Assembly (NCBI GenBank): GCA_947585865.1
Contig: CANPXH010000004.1
Coordinates: 62,001 to 126,000, forward strand
DNA: 64,000 nt
Direction: 5' to 3'
Source: an uncultured Clostridia bacterium
Lineage (GTDB): Bacteria > Bacillota > Clostridia > Lachnospirales > CAG-274
Numbering within the stretch: position 1 is the stretch's first letter; every line of letters starts with the position of its first letter. The position numbers and the translations under genes are program-made. Of this stretch, positions 28,136 to 50,222 are shown one piece after another. The notes beneath the pieces are model-generated. The model did no database searches. It saw nothing but the letters and a program-made list of their open reading frames with translations, and was not told where the DNA came from.

Positions 28136-28702
28136 CTAATATTTTCCTGCTATAAAATTCTTGATTATCTGTATGCCTTGGGGAGTATTTATGCTCTCAG
28201 GGTGGAACTGAAGCCCTACAACATCGTATTTCTTATGCTTTATTGCCATTATCTCTCCATCTGCCTTTGCCGTTACTTCAAGGCAGTCCGGCACAGTATC
28301 CTCCTTTACGGAAAGGCTGTGATACCTTGCCACCTCCATAGGGTTGGGGCAGTCCTCGAATATTCCCTTGCCGTTATGCATCATCATAGAGCTTTTGCCA
28401 TGGAAAAGCTCCTTTGCATTGCTTACAACAGCGCCGTAGGCAACTGCTATGGACTGATGGCCTAAGCACACGCCTAAAATAGGTATCCTTCCGCCTACAG
28501 TTTTTATTATCTCTATGGAGTTTCCCGCTTCCTTGGGAGTCTTGGGCCCCGGAGATATAACGACTCTGTCCGGCTTCATTTCAAGTATTTGCCTGCCGTT
28601 TATCTCATCGTTGCGAAACACTCTTATATCGCTGTCAAACTCTCCTATATACTGATACAGATTAAATGTAAAGCTGTCGTAATTATCTATCAGAATCACC
28701 AT
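28136..28702 (-). CDS. trpG: Anthranilate synthase glutamine amidotransferase component
   Basis: A 188-residue class I amidotransferase. The nucleophile cysteine is in LGVCLGHQSI, with the catalytic His/Glu in QFHPESI. It ends at 188 residues with no phosphoribosyltransferase fusion. It touches trpE by one base (ATGA-type coupling). It may also serve PabB. Confidence 0.94.
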   Translation of the reverse strand: MVILIDNYDSFTFNLYQYIGEFDSDIRVFRNDEINGRQILEMKPDRVVISPGPKTPKEAGNSIEIIKTVGGRIPILGVCLGHQSIAVAYGAVVSNAKELFHGKSSMMMHNGKGIFEDCPNPMEVARYHSLSVKEDTVPDCLEVTAKADGEIMAIKHKKYDVVGLQFHPESINTPQGIQIIKNFIAGKY

Positions 28703-41760: not shown

Positions 41761-44700
41761 TTACTGTGATACAGTTTCTTCGTGAATAGTACCATATACC
41801 TTGTGACCGTCTATCTCTGAATATGTGGATACATAGAATGTTTTACCACTGGTTAAACCGGGAACCTTGATAGCTGCGATATATTTATCACCTTCAGCTT
41901 TAATTTCTTTTGTCAATGTTCCTTCATCAACAACCTCTGCAAATACAGTATCTGTTTCTAATTCGGAAGCATCGTCAGCCAATGCGCCTGCCTTTGACAT
42001 AGCAGCATTTATACCGACCATGCTTGCATCAGCTAATGATGCATTTGTAGCCATCTCACCGATTACATAAGCTGTATCATTGCCATCGTTGTAAACAACA
42101 TCTTTAAATACAAATGCTGGTTCAGGAATTTCGCCTGTGGTTGTAAGGGTGATTTTATCTAAGTAACCAGTACCACTACCGGCAACAATCTCGATATAAT
42201 CCTTATCTTCATTTACTTTAACGGTTTTAGATTCACCATTACTTTGTGCTGTAAATGATTCTCCATTAATTGTTAATGTTGTATTTCCATAGGCTGAAAC
42301 TGTAACCTCATCACCAACAGCGAAAACAGGAACTTTGATTACAGCACCGTCATTGAATATTGCCCATTGCTGATTACGAACTTGGAATTTACTCTGTTCG
42401 CCGCCCTTAGTTGTATCAACATATAATGATACTCCTGCTGTATCTGATTGATATCCGGCTGTCTCTATGTTGGTGTTTGATCCTGTATCTTTCTGAACAA
42501 TATCTATTGGTAAATCTGTAACTACTGACTGGTTGAGATTCCATGTAATAGTTTTCTTTTCCTTAACCTTATCGGTTAAAGCACCTGTTGTTTTAACAGT
42601 AAGTCCCTTAGAATAGAAAGCACTTGTTGTTATACCTTCAAGCTTGATCTTTACAATATCGCCTGCCTTAAGGTCTTTTAATGTAGCATTAGCTGTAGCA
42701 TTATTAGTACTATCTGTTGTAGTAATATCAAGTGCTTCTATAGTCTTTACATCATTTACATAAACAACAGCATTGCCCTTGTTTTGTTCGTATGAAGTGC
42801 TCAGTATTATTTCTGTTGTATCTGCATCTTCCGCCATTGTGAATGTTAAAACTCCGGTATTATTTGCAGTAGCACCATATCGATCCTGATGTCTATTGAA
42901 ATTCGTTATTTCAAGTATTCCCTTTCCGTCTTTACTCATAAGAGTAGTCGGCATAGGATTACCTTGTGATAAATTGTCAACAACAAAATCAAATTCATAA
43001 GTATTCATGGCAACAGGCTCATAAAGAGTACGGAGACTAATGCTGTAAAGGTATGTATTACCCGTTGCAACCAAATCAATACCCTTACCGACATCATCAG
43101 CTTCTGCCGTGATCTCTGTTGTCGCACTTTCTGCCGGTTTGTCCTTTACACTATATTGCGTATCATATGCATTAATTGTAATTATATCGCCTGCCTGATA
43201 TACAGGAATAGTAATCTTTGTATTCTCGTTAAACTGAGCGTCAGCATCAGGATTTCTCTGCTGTAATTTGCCGCTAGTCGCATCTACATTTAAGGCAACT
43301 GTGCCAAGCTTATCATCTTGTACAGTAACAGTACCGGTCTTGCTCTGAATTGCACCATTTTCACCTAAGCTTGTGTTGCGCGTCTTGAAATTCCATGTTA
43401 CAAGTGAGCCTTCAATTTCAGGTATCACATAAGGAACATGCTTTTCAGGAAGCCAATCTTCTGAATAGAAGTTATAATCATTTTCTGCTGCAAGAATATC
43501 TGCTTCTTCCTTTGTAAGCTGCGCACCATTAAGAGTTGACTTAAATTCCACATCGCCGGTTGTAGTATTGCCGTACTCTTTGAAAGTAGCCTGCTCAGGC
43601 TGAACACCACTCATTTCATTCCAGCCTTTTTCTAATATAAGCCCATTAGTTTTAGTATTTATAAATGTAACATCGGCTGAAGTACCCCATGGTCTTCCGT
43701 AATATCCCGGTTCAACTGTTTCTGCGCTTGTATCGATTTTACCGCTTTCTACGCTGCAATCTCTTAATATGATCTTGCCCTGTGTAGCAGTAATATAACC
43801 CGGCTTACTCTTACCTGCAAGCGCATTATAGCCTGACCAAAGAAGCTTACAATTATCAAATGCTGTAAATGAGCCTGCACCACCGAATATATAGTCAGTC
43901 TGACCCATTATTTCACAATCCTTGAAATAATAGAGACCTGTCTTTACATAAAGGGTATCCTGTGAGCTCTTGAGCTTACACTTGTAGATAGAAGCCTTAG
44001 CGTTATCAAGAACAAGTGCTGCTGCTCTCTCTGTAGCTGCTGCTGCCTTGACATCTGTATCTATTGTTCTTACAACTTCGGTATTAAGTTTATTTGCATC
44101 AATTTCCTGAGCTGTAGCAAGAGTAACACCATCATCAATTTCATCCTGAGTCATATATCTGTTGAAAGAATTTTCAAATGTAATACCCTCTGCATAGAAG
44201 TTGTCGCCTGTAACTTGTACAGCAGTACCCCATCTGTCTACGGTAGCGGTAAGATTATGCTTATCATAAGCATACTCTATGTCATAAAGGCCTCTGTAAT
44301 AAGATCCGCCTGACCAACTAGAAGCAGTGTTTTTTGTCGGTACAGGCTTTATGCTGTAGTATTTGTAGCCTACGCCATAGTACCATGTAAGTGTAACCTC
44401 ACCGTCATCAAAATTGCCGTTGCCGTTATAGTCTGATGTAAGTGTAACATTATTTGCATCAACTATTATCTGCTCTCTGTAAGTGCCTGCCTTAATACGA
44501 ACTGTCCACTTATCTGTTGCAGAAGATGATATGCTTGACGCCTTTATACCTGCAATAGCTTCATTTACTGTAGGATAATGTACGCCATCATAGCTTGTAT
44601 CATCAGGATCTACATATATTTCTTTATTTGATGCTGTTGCAGGAACTGCATTCTTCTTATAAAGAACGTTGTTAAAGTTATTAGCTGTATCTGAAGCGCT

Positions 44701-47421
44701 TACTGTAAATTCATCACTTGAAAGTGTTGATATTGTATAGCCTTCAAGCTCTGAAGCTTCTACTTCGTATGTACCGGGAGCAAGCTGCATTTCATAAGCA
44801 CCGGTAGAGTTATCAAAGTTAACCTGAGTTTCTACATTAGTGACAGTATTTTTATATTTAATAGTTACACCATCAGGAATTTCAGTCTTACCCTGTACTG
44901 TAACAGTACCCTTGAATGTAACATTTTCTATCTTTGTAAGTGTAACCTCAGGATTTTCTACGCCCTGTGTAACCGTAAGTGTACCTGAATATGCCGTACC
45001 ATCCTTTGTAAGTACAAGAGGATATTCGCCCTCATTAAAGAAGTAAGACTGACCTACAGTATATTCCTGTCCGTTGATGGTATACGTACCCTCAGTAACA
45101 GGATCGGTTCCATCGATCTTAAAGGAAGGTGTTACCTGTACCTGTGCTTTTACATCTACAGTAATTTTATTTACATATATAGCTTTTGTATTGCTTACAA
45201 GACTGTATGTCTTACCTGCTTCAAGCTTAACAGGTTTTTTCTCATTAGTAACATAATTACCCTTGCCGTTAGTTGAACCAACAGTTACATCTGTGGCTCC
45301 GCCTTTAAGCATAAGGTTTCTGTCATCATCACCTGATGTAGCATAGCTTACTGTCAGATATGCTTCCTTACCTACGAGATCGCCTGTGCTGAACTTGATA
45401 CCTGCTTTACTGCCTATGTTTATTCTCTTGTTTGCTGTATCAAGAGTGGCAGTATTTGTATCAACAGCTTCAAGTTCAAAATAATACGGACCTGACAAGT
45501 GCTGATTTACTTGCTGGACTATATCATTGTTTTCGCCTGTCCATTCAATTTTTCCTTCGTTTATAGCTGTACGAGCAGTTGTCTCCGGGAATTCAACAGT
45601 AAAATCAACATCACCATCTACTTTCCATGTATAGGAATTATTGTCAAGTACAAGCTCTTTTGTACCGACCTTAACTGACGGATAATGGTTGCCATCATTA
45701 GGAGTTGCTGTAAGCTTAAGCTCTGTTTCGCCATCAACCTGTGTACCGCTGGATACAGAATCATTGCCGTTAGTCTTTACGAGAGTAACACTACCATTTT
45801 CAGGTGATCCTGTATAAGTAACTTTACCTGATAAACGTGTGATGAGTGCGCCGTCTCCCGGTTCTGTTGCTTCACCATTTGCAACTATATCAGTAAATGT
45901 AATATCTGCATTTCTTGCTGCAAAGAAACCGGGATATATATATCCTGACATCTGCTCATCGGAAAGCGTATACTCTTTGATAAAGTTGCCATAAGGCGTC
46001 TTATAAGAAGTTGCATACCTATTCCCATATTTTACGATTTTAACCGTTACTTCATCACCTGCTGCAGGTACAGCCGGAAGAACATCGCCTGTAGTCATTG
46101 TAGAGGTAGCCTTATCAACTGAAAAGCTGCTGTTCGGTTTACCTGATGACATATTTACAGGACCTGCTGCAACATAATTGAAGTTTGCTCCGGATTCATT
46201 AGTGTCAATTTTTATCTCATCTGAAATAATGGCACCGAATGAAACCTGATCATTGGAGCTGTTAATACTATTTATATGCGCTTTTGCAGATACCTGATAA
46301 ATGTTTGTATTAGCAGGAATACAAGTAAAGTACATGGCAATACCATTTGCTGATGAAGAAACCTTACCCTTGTCACCGGCCTTGCCTGCTACTATCTGAA
46401 CCTTATTTTCATCCGGTGTTTCTGTTATATCAAAATTATTTTTATTTACAGCTCCGCCTACGTCACCAAATACTGTAGCATACCAATCTTCTTTTGTTGT
46501 AGTCCATAAACTGCTTTTATTTGTTTCTAATTCTTCAAGTGAATAATCGCCCTCTTTAGGTGGTTGATAACCCGGATTTTGTTTTAAATCCTCTTCCTCT
46601 GTAGGCTCCTGAGGATCAGCAACAAATAAATCCTTTAACCCATTCTGAGCATTTTTTGCTATTAAGCAGGCAACCATCTTTGCACCATAGTTGTTAAGAT
46701 GTGTATTGTCTACTGTTTTTTCATTTATCCATGCGTGATATTTCTTAGCTGCTTCAAGATCTGTATATTTTTCCTTAGTAAGAGTTGTAAGATCTATACA
46801 ATCGATACTACATTCGATTGCTAACTCTTTAATATCCTGAGCATAATCTCCGCCATTATCCTTATGCACATCCTTATCGGTCCAATCAGAACCTGACGGA
46901 TGTCTTACTATAGGAGTACATAATACAGGCGTAACGCCTTTATTCTGAGCAGGCTTAATATAATTTTCATAAAGAGAATTCTTGAATGTACCTGCTTCGT
47001 CTTTAGTACCGCCGGGACTTGTATATAATGCAGCATCACTTTGCTTTTCATCATTATGACCAAAAGCAATTATAAGATAATCACCTGACTGCATACCGGC
47101 AGTACCATCTGTGCCCATTAATTTCTTGTAATTATTTTCACTTAAAAAGCTTTTGGAGCTTCTGCCTGATAATGCAAGATTTTCCACTTTTGCCTTATCA
47201 CTTTGCACATAATCTTTAAGCTTTGTGCCAAAGCCTACCCTTTTGTAATAATAAGTCGCATCGTCTGCTTCTTTGTAATCACAGCTTGTGGAATCGCCTA
47301 CTATCCAAATTGTAGGTGTGCCTTCTGCTGCGCTTACAGTCACCGCCATATTGCACAGCATAGCAGACAGCGCCATTACAAAAGCCAGCAATCCGCTTAA
47401 TCCTTTCCTGAATTTTTTCAT
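41761..47421 (-). CDS. Giant secreted pectin/rhamnogalacturonan esterase (CE12 + CE8)
   Basis: 1886 residues with a signal peptide at 1-32. An SGNH hydrolase of CE12 type follows (Ser44 in IVGDSTS, LALSGRSSKSF, IIAFGHNDE, and DNTHLNNYGA with the catalytic Asp/His), which should deacetylate rhamnogalacturonan. Middle beta-rich modules include several laminin-G/CBM-like stretches. A CE8 pectin methylesterase covers about 925-1285 with QDTLY, GQTDYIFGG and YYGRPWG holding the catalytic residues. Further beta modules end the protein; no SLH or dockerin is seen. Both esterases prepare pectin for lyases such as the PL9 at 8.6 kb. The start at 47421 is set by GGGAGG ten bases upstream; a 13-codon extension to 47460 is possible. 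Confidence 0.88.
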   Translation of the reverse strand: MKKFRKGLSGLLAFVMALSAMLCNMAVTVSAAEGTPTIWIVGDSTSCDYKEADDATYYYKRVGFGTKLKDYVQSDKAKVENLALSGRSSKSFLSENNYKKLMGTDGTAGMQSGDYLIIAFGHNDEKQSDAALYTSPGGTKDEAGTFKNSLYENYIKPAQNKGVTPVLCTPIVRHPSGSDWTDKDVHKDNGGDYAQDIKELAIECSIDCIDLTTLTKEKYTDLEAAKKYHAWINEKTVDNTHLNNYGAKMVACLIAKNAQNGLKDLFVADPQEPTEEEDLKQNPGYQPPKEGDYSLEELETNKSSLWTTTKEDWYATVFGDVGGAVNKNNFDITETPDENKVQIVAGKAGDKGKVSSSANGIAMYFTCIPANTNIYQVSAKAHINSINSSNDQVSFGAIISDEIKIDTNESGANFNYVAAGPVNMSSGKPNSSFSVDKATSTMTTGDVLPAVPAAGDEVTVKIVKYGNRYATSYKTPYGNFIKEYTLSDEQMSGYIYPGFFAARNADITFTDIVANGEATEPGDGALITRLSGKVTYTGSPENGSVTLVKTNGNDSVSSGTQVDGETELKLTATPNDGNHYPSVKVGTKELVLDNNSYTWKVDGDVDFTVEFPETTARTAINEGKIEWTGENNDIVQQVNQHLSGPYYFELEAVDTNTATLDTANKRINIGSKAGIKFSTGDLVGKEAYLTVSYATSGDDDRNLMLKGGATDVTVGSTNGKGNYVTNEKKPVKLEAGKTYSLVSNTKAIYVNKITVDVKAQVQVTPSFKIDGTDPVTEGTYTINGQEYTVGQSYFFNEGEYPLVLTKDGTAYSGTLTVTQGVENPEVTLTKIENVTFKGTVTVQGKTEIPDGVTIKYKNTVTNVETQVNFDNSTGAYEMQLAPGTYEVEASELEGYTISTLSSDEFTVSASDTANNFNNVLYKKNAVPATASNKEIYVDPDDTSYDGVHYPTVNEAIAGIKASSISSSATDKWTVRIKAGTYREQIIVDANNVTLTSDYNGNGNFDDGEVTLTWYYGVGYKYYSIKPVPTKNTASSWSGGSYYRGLYDIEYAYDKHNLTATVDRWGTAVQVTGDNFYAEGITFENSFNRYMTQDEIDDGVTLATAQEIDANKLNTEVVRTIDTDVKAAAATERAAALVLDNAKASIYKCKLKSSQDTLYVKTGLYYFKDCEIMGQTDYIFGGAGSFTAFDNCKLLWSGYNALAGKSKPGYITATQGKIILRDCSVESGKIDTSAETVEPGYYGRPWGTSADVTFINTKTNGLILEKGWNEMSGVQPEQATFKEYGNTTTGDVEFKSTLNGAQLTKEEADILAAENDYNFYSEDWLPEKHVPYVIPEIEGSLVTWNFKTRNTSLGENGAIQSKTGTVTVQDDKLGTVALNVDATSGKLQQRNPDADAQFNENTKITIPVYQAGDIITINAYDTQYSVKDKPAESATTEITAEADDVGKGIDLVATGNTYLYSISLRTLYEPVAMNTYEFDFVVDNLSQGNPMPTTLMSKDGKGILEITNFNRHQDRYGATANNTGVLTFTMAEDADTTEIILSTSYEQNKGNAVVYVNDVKTIEALDITTTDSTNNATANATLKDLKAGDIVKIKLEGITTSAFYSKGLTVKTTGALTDKVKEKKTITWNLNQSVVTDLPIDIVQKDTGSNTNIETAGYQSDTAGVSLYVDTTKGGEQSKFQVRNQQWAIFNDGAVIKVPVFAVGDEVTVSAYGNTTLTINGESFTAQSNGESKTVKVNEDKDYIEIVAGSGTGYLDKITLTTTGEIPEPAFVFKDVVYNDGNDTAYVIGEMATNASLADASMVGINAAMSKAGALADDASELETDTVFAEVVDEGTLTKEIKAEGDKYIAAIKVPGLTSGKTFYVSTYSEIDGHKVYGTIHEETVSQ

Positions 47422-47504
47422 TCTTTCTGAACCTCCCGTTCTTTTATTTTCTTTCCGCATTTTACATAGTAATAGGAAAGAACTTTTTTTACAAGAAATA
47501 TTTT

Positions 47505-47534
47505 ATCATACCCCCCCCCCCTTAAATCAAGCAA
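47505..47534 (-). promoter_or_regulatory. Promoter of the giant esterase with an 11-base G tract in its spacer
   Basis: Minus-strand TTGCTT (47529-47534), an 18-bp spacer containing eleven G (47511-47521) and TATGAT (47505-47510). Gain or loss of a G would change spacer length, the arrangement used for phase variation in other bacteria. The -35 box also lies in an inverted repeat. Confidence 0.6.
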
Positions 47535-47566
47535 CAGCTTTAATTTTTTAAGCTATTGCTTGATTT
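47524..47566. other. Inverted repeat over the -35 region of the esterase promoter
   Basis: AAATCAAGCAA-c-AGCTT and AAGCT-a-TTGCTTGATTT with a 9-base centre; one mismatch. It could be an operator or a terminator-like hairpin. Confidence 0.6.
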
Positions 47567-47696
47567 CAGCGTTTTGCATAATTATTTTGTAAATTTTTTA
47601 TTAATAGTGCCAAGGAGGAAAAAGGTTTTAAAATTTAATGTATAATTTGATATTTATGCCGCAAATTTACAATTATATTACATACAAAACCTTTAC

Positions 47697-47725
47697 TTGA
47701 TATATTTGTAATTTTTGGTTATAAT
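47697..47725 (+). promoter_or_regulatory. Promoter of the two-component genes
   Basis: TTGATA (47697-47702), 17-bp spacer, TATAAT (47720-47725). Confidence 0.75.
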
Positions 47726-47759
47726 TTATATATAAGTATATTTTGAGGAGGTGTTTTGT

Positions 47760-48446
47760 ATGGCAAAAGTACTTGTGGTAGATGATGAAGCAAGTATAGT
47801 AAATATCATATCATACAATCTCAAAAAAGAGGGCTATGAGGTAATAACGGCCGAAGACGGAGAGAACGGCCTGGAGCTTGCCTTAAGCGAAAGCCCCGAT
47901 CTGATATTGCTGGATATAATGATGCCAAAGATGGACGGCTATGAAGTATGCCGCAAGGTCAGGGAGAAAAGCAATGTTCCCATAATAATGCTGACAGCCA
48001 GAGCAGATGAGGTGGACAAGGTAATCGGTCTTGAAATGGGCGCAGACGACTATGTTACAAAGCCCTTTGGCAACAGGGAGCTTATAGCAAGGGTGAAGGC
48101 TCATCTGAGAAGAAGCGCGGCAAAGGATATGCCTGAGACCAACGGCAACGTACAGACTTTTGGCGATCTTACCATAGACTTCGACAGATATGAAGTAACT
48201 AAGAGAGGCGATGTTATCAATCTTACATTGAGAGAATTTGAATTGCTGACATTCCTTGCCACTCAAAAGACTCAGATATTCAACAGAGAAACACTGCTGG
48301 AGAAGGTGTGGGGCTATGAATATTTCGGAGACGTAAGGGCTGTAGATGTGACTATAAGGCGCCTCAGAGAGAAGATCGAAGACGATCCCGGAAAGCCAAG
48401 ATATATTATTACCAAGAGAGGTATCGGCTATTATTTCAGTTCATAA
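47760..48446 (+). CDS. OmpR-family response regulator (WalR/PhoP type)
   Basis: A 228-residue regulator. The receiver has Asp/Asp near the N-terminus (VVDDE), the phosphorylated Asp in [14 protein letters not shown] (about 52), Thr in MLTARADE and Lys in YVTKPF. The C-terminal winged helix ends in RGIGYYFSS. The sequence is close to WalR (YycF), which controls wall hydrolases, but PhoP is similar; the walHI neighbours are missing. The ATG 47760 follows AGGAGG by eight bases. The kinase gene follows nine bases after the stop. Confidence 0.9.
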
Positions 48447-48455
48447 GGTGATTTG

Positions 48456-50222
48456 ATGAAAAGTATTCGTTGGAAGCTGGTATTTCTGTATCTTTCATTA
48501 GTATTTATAGTAATGATAATTACAGGTACCGTTCTCGTTATCAGTACCGAAAACCGTGAAAAAAACAAGGCAAGCGAGGAATTAAGACAGTACGCTATAT
48601 ATATCGAGGAGCAGGTTATCGATCAGTACGACAGCAGATATTTTCAGGACAGTATTGCCAATCTGTCTTTCATAAGCTCTTCGCAAAGAACCATAAGCGG
48701 ACATATACTGGATCAGAACGGCAACACCATTGCCAGTTCAACTGCCGCCAATGCAGAGGAATTCCCCAGGTTTACCAATTCGGGCATTATCTCCGCACTT
48801 AACGGACAGGAAGCTTTTACCGACAATATAAAAGTTACCGACAGCAACGGGCAGACCACCAATGTTATGGGCTATTCCTATCCCTGCAAAGACGAAAACG
48901 GCAGCGTGCAGTATGTTGCATACGTACAGATGGCGGCAGACGCCATAGAATCTACCATCGCTCAGACTACAAGAAGCATTGTTGTGGCAAGCGTGCTTGC
49001 CCTTATATTCACCGCCATAATAGGCTTTATATTTGCAAACACCATAACGGCGCCTATAGCCGTGCTTACAAAAAAGGCGGATATGATGGCTAAGGGCCGG
49101 CTGGAGCAGAGAGCCGTTGTGAAAAGCAATGACGAGATAGGCCAGCTTACAAAGAGCTTCAACACAATGGCACGAGAGCTTAAAAAAAGCTTAGGTGAAA
49201 TGGTGGATCAGAGAAACAAGCTTGAGATCGTGCTCCACAACATGACAGACGGTATACTCGCCTTTGACGAAAGAGGAAATCTTATACATATAAATAAGTC
49301 CTCTTATGAAATGCTTGATATAGACGATGTGAATATTTCGCTTAAGTGGCTTTTGAAAAAGCTGAATATAGGCGTTTCCGATATAAGACCAAATTCCATA
49401 ATGGATCTTACCATAAATGAAAATGACAAATATATCTCCGTTGCCCTTATACCATATGCCATTAAGAGCAAGACAAACGGAATAATAGTGGTTCTTCACG
49501 ATGTCACAAAGCAGAGCCAGCTTAACAATATGCGCCAGGAATTCGTGGCAAACGTAAGCCACGAAATAGGCACTCCCCTTACTACTATAAAGGGTTATGC
49601 CGAGCTGCTCCTTGACGGAGCTATAGACGACAAGAGCGTGGCTATGGATTTCCTGAGAGAAATAAATGTGGCGGCAGACAGGATGAAGCTTTTGAGAGAT
49701 GACCTTTTGGATCTGTCACGTTTCGATACCAAGGTGAACAAGCTGAATCGTACCGAGGCCGATCTGGTGGAGATCGTTAAGGGCTGCTGCCGACAAAATG
49801 TGATAGTGGCGGAGAATAAAAATCAGACCATACTTTTTACGCCGCCTAATAAGAAGATGCCTATTTATGCCGATGTGGGCAGAGTAAATCAGGTCATCAC
49901 CAACATAATGTCCAACGCTATGAAATACAGCGGCGAGGGTGCGGTCATCAAGATAAATATAAATGAAAAGAAAACTACCTACCACCTTGAGATAGCGGAC
50001 AACGGCATAGGAATGCCCAAGGAGGCTCTTGACAGGATATTTGAAAGATTCTATAGAGTAGATAAGGCAAGGAGCAGGGCCATGGGCGGAAACGGCTTGG
50101 GTCTTGCTATCGCCAAGGAGATAATGGATGCTCACGGCGGCAGGATAGAGGTGTACAGCGAACTGGGCGTGGGCACGACTATGGTGCTCATATTCCCTAA
50201 ATCACGGGGCATAAATGAATAA
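48456..50222 (+). CDS. Membrane sensor histidine kinase (WalK/PhoR type)
   Basis: A 588-residue kinase. Helix 1 (about 8-28), an extracellular sensor of about 145 residues, and helix 2 (about 170-192) are followed by HAMP (PIAVLTKKADMMAKGRLEQRA), PAS (MTDGILAFDERGNLIHINKSS), the H-box FVANVSHEIGTPLTTIKGY, and the ATPase N (MSNAMKYSG), G1 (IADNGIGMP), F and G2 (GNGLGLAIAK) boxes. The E-I-G-T rather than E-L-R-T H-box matches some WalK proteins. AAGGTG precedes the ATG. Partner of the upstream regulator. Confidence 0.9.
   Translation: MKSIRWKLVFLYLSLVFIVMIITGTVLVISTENREKNKASEELRQYAIYIEEQVIDQYDSRYFQDSIANLSFISSSQRTISGHILDQNGNTIASSTAANAEEFPRFTNSGIISALNGQEAFTDNIKVTDSNGQTTNVMGYSYPCKDENGSVQYVAYVQMAADAIESTIAQTTRSIVVASVLALIFTAIIGFIFANTITAPIAVLTKKADMMAKGRLEQRAVVKSNDEIGQLTKSFNTMARELKKSLGEMVDQRNKLEIVLHNMTDGILAFDERGNLIHINKSSYEMLDIDDVNISLKWLLKKLNIGVSDIRPNSIMDLTINENDKYISVALIPYAIKSKTNGIIVVLHDVTKQSQLNNMRQEFVANVSHEIGTPLTTIKGYAELLLDGAIDDKSVAMDFLREINVAADRMKLLRDDLLDLSRFDTKVNKLNRTEADLVEIVKGCCRQNVIVAENKNQTILFTPPNKKMPIYADVGRVNQVITNIMSNAMKYSGEGAVIKININEKKTTYHLEIADNGIGMPKEALDRIFERFYRVDKARSRAMGGNGLGLAIAKEIMDAHGGRIEVYSELGVGTTMVLIFPKSRGINE

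Follow-up and report, generated by a model that had tools for sequence, protein, structure and literature searches.

A poly-G tract in the promoter spacer of a predicted secreted pectin esterase gene, and related promoters in an order of gut Clostridia, as probable sites of slippage-based control

The window, by which we mean the whole 64-kb stretch of clostridial DNA that was analyzed, carries on its minus strand (41761..47421) a gene for a large secreted protein that combines an N-terminal GDSL esterase domain with a pectinesterase domain at residues 1128-1303, both recognized by Pfam. Solved pectinesterases match this second part as well, and the NCBIfam model PemA matches it far below its cut-off. 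The mechanical open reading frame reaches 47460 (1899 aa), but the ribosome-binding site and a comparison with a sister species make a start at 47421, giving 1886 aa, the likelier one. The N terminus contains a hydrophobic stretch (hydropathy 2.55, a hydropathy score as distinct from the output of a signal-peptide predictor), and the gene would thus appear to be a secreted or surface gene, as in systems of the porA type. On the plus strand a response regulator (47751-48446) and a sensor histidine kinase (48453-50222) form a divergent two-component pair (47751..50222), before which the promoter scan lists a separate promoter-like site, TTGATA-17-TATAAT (47697..47725, plus strand).

The promoter region of the esterase gene, 83 nt before the likely ATG, reads on the minus strand TTGCTT-GATTTAA-G11-TATGAT (TTGCTTGATTTAA-G11-TATGATAAAAT around the tract). 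A sequence-only reading had placed 11 G of the coding strand between TATGAT and TTGCTT with a spacing of 18 bp, and this can be read directly at 47505-47534: the tract occupies 47511..47521 (minus strand; a C run on the plus strand), flanked by TATGAT at 47505..47510 (5/6 matches to consensus, kept in the sister species) and TTGCTT at 47529..47534 (3/6). The further proposal that one G fewer would give the optimal 17 bp holds in that register, but the register is one of three, its -35 matches at 3/6, and the scan does not list the pair. An alternative -35, TTGATT (47525..47530, minus strand, 4/6), stands 14 bp from TATGAT, or 19 bp from an alternative -10, TAAAAT (47500..47505, minus strand, 5/6), which a preceding TGA makes an extended -10 and which reads TAGAAT in the sister. 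The scan of the window, which returned 10 promoter-like sites vs 6.6 in shuffles, requires at least 4/6 matches in each hexamer, and the TTGCTT pair goes unlisted because TTGCTT falls short of this. As the -35 is weak and ambiguous, and the exact -35 and -10 are uncertain, the optimal number of Gs is also uncertain; the tract lies inside the spacer under all three readings, however, so the idea of a slippery spacer survives each of them.

Comparison with the sister genome (G002; CANQBT010000011.1, an uncultured Clostridia MAG whose isolate name, "Lapin", suggests a rabbit host) reveals that the promoter is conserved apart from the length of the tract. The sister esterase is 87-88% identical in protein sequence across ~171 residues, after which its contig ends, and a search of 48 family genomes with 95 bp of promoter DNA returned matches in the window's own genome and in the sister only. 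Within a block that extends to the -10 (47505..47608, minus strand), 95 of 104 columns are identical, and the sole gap falls in the G run, which has 9 G in the sister (locus L042) vs 11 in the window, so that across the two species compared the tract length differs at an otherwise conserved promoter. Identity falls to 28/53 columns 3' of the -10 and returns to 45/54 at the ribosome-binding site and start, while further upstream the DNA differs, the sister having the end of a coding sequence and a site that resembles a terminator where the window has the two-component genes; we infer that the conserved block is an active promoter. The only site that the scan lists over the sister's tract is TTGATT-17-TGA-TAGAAT, in a scan (3 sites vs 1.6 in shuffles) that is not by itself above chance. 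Among more distant esterase homologs (L023-L026, L028-L041), the fetched DNA holds no run of at least 7 G except one elsewhere in L037, and several of these loci, which match an internal portion of the gene only, may stop short of its start.

The G11 tract is the sole run of at least 7 G or C in the window and the longest of the 11 runs of at least 8 G in the 2.58-Mb genome. Base composition predicts 18.5 runs of at least 8 G, 4.0 of at least 9, and 0.18 of at least 11, and the genome has 11, 8, and 1, respectively; G runs are thus not enriched overall, and G11 by itself is only mildly unusual. Its position beside a -10 is unusual: two of the eight runs of at least 9 G adjoin TATRAT, where 0.0075 are expected (binomial 2.5e-5), and the same two are the ones that do so among all 11 runs of at least 8 G, namely the esterase promoter and a site on contig C39.

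This second poly-G promoter (G000:C39:16696-16704), in which the G run lies between a clear TTGACA and a clear TATAAT (TTGACA-ATTTA-G9-TATAAT), precedes a gene for a secreted pectate lyase. No Pfam family was found in the 481-aa stretch available on C39; its ortholog in genome G004, 97% identical over 191 aa, matches a solved pectate lyase (9buj, E = 3e-78), with the NCBIfam model PelZ below its cut-off. The G004 ortholog is 1,163 aa long and also contains BspA-type repeats and a dockerin domain that scores 23.3 bits against a cut-off of 22.9. The promoters in the two genomes both have exactly 9 G and a 14-bp spacer. Both genomes hold a further copy of the lyase gene (L139/L140 on G004:C19 and C6; L095/L099 on G000:C39 and C22), the copies being 91% identical in DNA over 3,622 columns in G004 and 95% over 527 columns, where the contigs end, in G000; the region upstream of the second copies is unrelated, with no G run in the inspected upstream stretch. 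A single genome can thus hold similar pectate lyase genes of which just one has a poly-G promoter. In the sister, the lyase ortholog (L094; G002:C30, upstream of 4529) is preceded by a standard TTGACA-17-TATAAT promoter, and a degenerate site, TTGGTT-TTCAA-G9-TAAATT, lies closer to the gene, likewise with 9 G and 14 bp. A G9 run occurs within the 200 bases upstream of three of nine pectate-lyase-like genes (G000:C39, G004:C19, and G002:C30), a count of nine that leaves out three other loci.

Promoters of this kind recur beyond the two genes. A G run beside TATRAT, searched as GGGGGGGTATRAT, is found at 14 sites in 11 of the 48 family genomes, with none for the reversed control; two of the sites are those of the window and its sister, a -35 matching at 5-6 of 6 positions accompanies 9 of the 14, the site in G001 has no recognizable -35, and those in G051 and G059 appear by eye to be coding or chance. 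The corresponding C run (CCCCCCCTATRAT) occurs beside TATRAT in 0/48 family genomes. Across the order, the stricter pattern TTGACA-N3-13-G7+-N0-2-TATRAT yields 20 sites in 17 of 392 genomes (reversed-pattern control 0), with the run directly adjoining the -10 in 19; the 20 include ortholog pairs (L066/L067, L069/L070, and L062/L064) and are therefore not independent events. Outside the order the pattern is found in 0 of 196 genomes, the remainder of a sample of 199 of which three belong to the order, and of those three only the window's own matched. Four of the 20 sites lie in a single genome of another family, G085 (L075, L078, L079, and L080), each a TTGACA/TATAAT promoter whose spacer contains a G run; one precedes a gene whose product carries the sensor domain of a chemotaxis receptor, and another precedes what is by eye a lipoprotein gene.

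The spacers of these promoters are scattered, at 13 (one site), 14 (four), 16 (three), 17 (two), 18 (three), 19 (four), and 20 bp (three). Ordinary TTGACA/TATAAT pairs in G000 and G002 cluster tightly, with 104/147 at 17 bp, and spacers of 16-18 bp account for 8/20 poly-G sites vs 125/147 ordinary ones (Fisher p = 3.4e-5), the background being two genomes, spacers of 13-21 bp, and TATAAT only, and including those genomes' own two poly-G sites. Length variation is also seen between orthologs of a protein of genus g5 that has five homologs in the 48 genomes: the promoter reads TTGACA-AAAATCAGC-G11-TATAAT (spacer 20) in G023 and TTGACA-AATGTCAGT-G9-TATAAT (spacer 18) in G049, and in a third ortholog (L107; G046:C134) it reads TTGACA-AAGGTCATT-GGGAAAGGG-TATAAT, with GGGAAAGGG in place of nine Gs and the spacer unchanged at 18. 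The G046 promoter is possibly a frozen switch with its spacing kept, and could also represent an older state. The distant homologs in G041 and G047 have no G run in the inspected upstream stretch.

Secreted or membrane proteins lie downstream of the order's poly-G promoters more often than not. An open reading frame with a plausible ribosome-binding site follows 18 of the 20 order sites, and in 13 of these 18 it begins with a strong hydrophobic segment, compared with 8/21 control genes (one-sided p = 0.034), the controls coming from 29 loci with ordinary 17-bp promoters in 16 of the 17 genomes, of which eight have no such open reading frame and two are nearly the same gene. Adding five further GGGGGGGTATRAT sites gives 17/23 (p = 0.018). 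By this test, which is one of crude hydropathy rather than signal-peptide prediction, the enrichment is only modest.

Our preferred reading, to which we give a probability of roughly 0.7, is that G11 is the slippery spacer of a sigma-A-type promoter of the pectin esterase gene, that slippage alters the amount of enzyme, and that this promoter belongs to a group with poly-G spacers that recurs in this Clostridia order. Replication slippage would add or remove Gs, each change would shift the -10 relative to the -35 region and its inverted repeat, both in distance and in helical phase, and cells of one clone would come to make differing amounts of the enzyme. The sequence-only reading had proposed phase-variable expression from the G-tract promoter, and the proposal gains from the conserved block with its 2-G change, the second poly-G promoter, the recurrence with scattered spacers, and frame breaks at other runs of the genome; its -35/-10 assignment and its optimal G number remain uncertain. 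The locus is a real, conserved poly-G promoter region that probably acts as a slippage switch or rheostat, a mechanism of known type for which the group of bacteria and the class of gene are new. We infer that slippage takes place within a strain and changes transcription, and gains and losses of Gs are probably a means by which microbes of this order switch or tune some of their genes for digestion and for the cell surface.

The alternative that survives best, although we consider it unlikely, is that the poly-G is a real and conserved promoter element without being a switch, its length changing over evolutionary time only and its G beside the -10 being kept for promoter strength, as an extended -10 G, or for DNA shape. 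Such an element would agree with the strand bias in the family, where the run beside TATRAT is G on the coding strand at all 14 sites and never C, as pure slippage would be indifferent to strand; the simplest idea is that the G may double as the extended -10 G, and the -10 of C. phytofermentans is described as carrying an upstream TG (PMC5171806). The pectate lyase promoters of three species, all with 9 G (at 14 bp in G000, G004, and the degenerate G002 site), could likewise reflect stable lengths. However, it is not obvious why an element kept for strength should call for 9-11 unbroken Gs, or for a spacer of 14 or 20 bp, and the G046 promoter, whose tract is broken while the spacer length stays the same, suggests that promoter shape does not require unbroken Gs. 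Long G runs are also unstable in general.

Upstream of the tract, and overlapping the -35, lies a 43-bp inverted repeat (47521..47569, core 47524-47566, no strand assigned) that could serve as an operator or form a hairpin. The sequence-only reading had noted this repeat as containing the -35, and the repeat search and fold bear it out: the arms (47521-47543 and 47547-47569, 3 nt apart) are 87% complementary, the DNA fold has z = -7.65, and no other inverted repeat of at least 12 nt occurs in 47400-47760. It is kept in the sister species, which is as far as the evidence goes in favor of the second layer of control that had been proposed for it. That a regulator bound over the -35 exerts the main control, with the tract merely setting the distance to the -10, strikes us as quite improbable: the repeat is strong and conserved, and the -35 that it overlaps is weak, as would fit an activator, but a half-site at 0-1 mismatch occurs solely at this promoter among five genus genomes, so that no regulon is visible, and those other poly-G promoters that were inspected by eye have no matching repeat. 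Control through the repeat and a slippery spacer are compatible with each other. Other roles for the repeat were considered and rejected: an operator of a regulon (no further site with fewer than two mismatches in the five genomes), an RNA family (all matches far below gathering scores), a terminator (none reported there by the window scan), and an invertible promoter, for which the geometry is unfit, as the repeats lie upstream of the -10 and do not flank the promoter.

Least probable of all is a chance run or an assembly artefact, for although runs of at least 8 G are not in excess, with ~0.18 of at least 11 G expected from composition, and homopolymer lengths in assemblies can be off, the separately assembled sister genome has a G run at the same place and the position beside the -10 is far above chance.

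Most known cases of phase variation by slippage come from host-adapted pathogens. A review raises the same bias and, in the part available to us, names inversions in C. difficile and in glycan-use loci of Bacteroides, and no slippage promoter in Clostridia (PMC11868660); among the matches listed for the open-licence PMC literature, there was no report of slippage promoters for pectin or fibre enzymes, or in Clostridia. The closest precedents are porA of Neisseria meningitidis and tp0126 of Treponema pallidum, described as controlled by a poly-G between -35 and -10 with the best spacing at a total of 17 nt (PMC7864442). The former, like the esterase, is a surface gene in which the G run sets the -35/-10 distance; porA is a Gram-negative porin, however, whereas here we have a secreted pectin enzyme of a gut clostridium, an inverted repeat over the -35, and putative switching. 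The OmpW-like tp0126 product is an outer-membrane protein of a spirochete, and its length dependence was measured, whereas that of the esterase promoter is predicted from sequence. For fetA/frpB of Neisseria gonorrhoeae, a homopolymer between -35 and -10 is likewise reported to alter expression (PMC5320596), but it is a C run, a type absent beside TATRAT in our family genomes. The C. difficile invertible promoters are a case of phase variation in Clostridia, and the invertase-mediated variation of glycan use in Bacteroides one of nutrient acquisition in gut bacteria (PMC11868660), but both proceed by DNA inversion and not slippage. In the gut commensal Akkermansia muciniphila, slippage switches have been proposed at long G runs of capsule genes, an acyltransferase gene among them (PMC3048395); unlike the present tract, the runs described lie inside genes and not in a promoter spacer, and homopolymers inside genes are also the subject of PMC2831843.

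More tentatively, the gut Clostridia of this order may carry a set of poly-G promoter switches through which the cells of a clone come to differ in their plant-fibre enzymes and surface proteins. Labour would then be divided by slippage, with the cost of secreting pectin-degrading enzymes falling on a fraction of the cells only. If this is true, fibre digestion in gut Clostridia would be a stochastic, bet-hedged trait, and a G run beside TATAAT would offer a simple genomic signature with which to survey poly-G promoters.

Other runs in the genome of the window were inspected by eye, and some poly-G/C runs fall at breaks in reading frames. A third run, on C6, consists of G8 followed by TACATT, and the large protein encoded after it looks similar to the protein that follows G9-TATAAT in G001; further runs are found on C3, at C4:5995, and on C35. 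At G000:C14:19952-19960 (L010), a G9 lies in an acyltransferase gene whose frame breaks at the run, the N-terminal piece matching Acyl_transf_3 and the next piece continuing in another frame, with no match for the C-terminal piece; this run is possibly a translational switch. Two neighbouring paralogs (L014/L015; G000:C29:27313-27321 and 28207-28214) have C9 and C8 runs with apparent frame breaks near their starts. On C23 (L012; G000:C23:29303-29311), a G9 marks the point where the start of a short open reading frame and a longer frame do not join, near a gene that by eye is lysin-like and possibly belongs to a prophage. Finally, a G9 on C66 (L021; G000:C66:3788-3796) lies ~150 bp upstream of a divergent secreted protein, on whose strand it reads as a C run.
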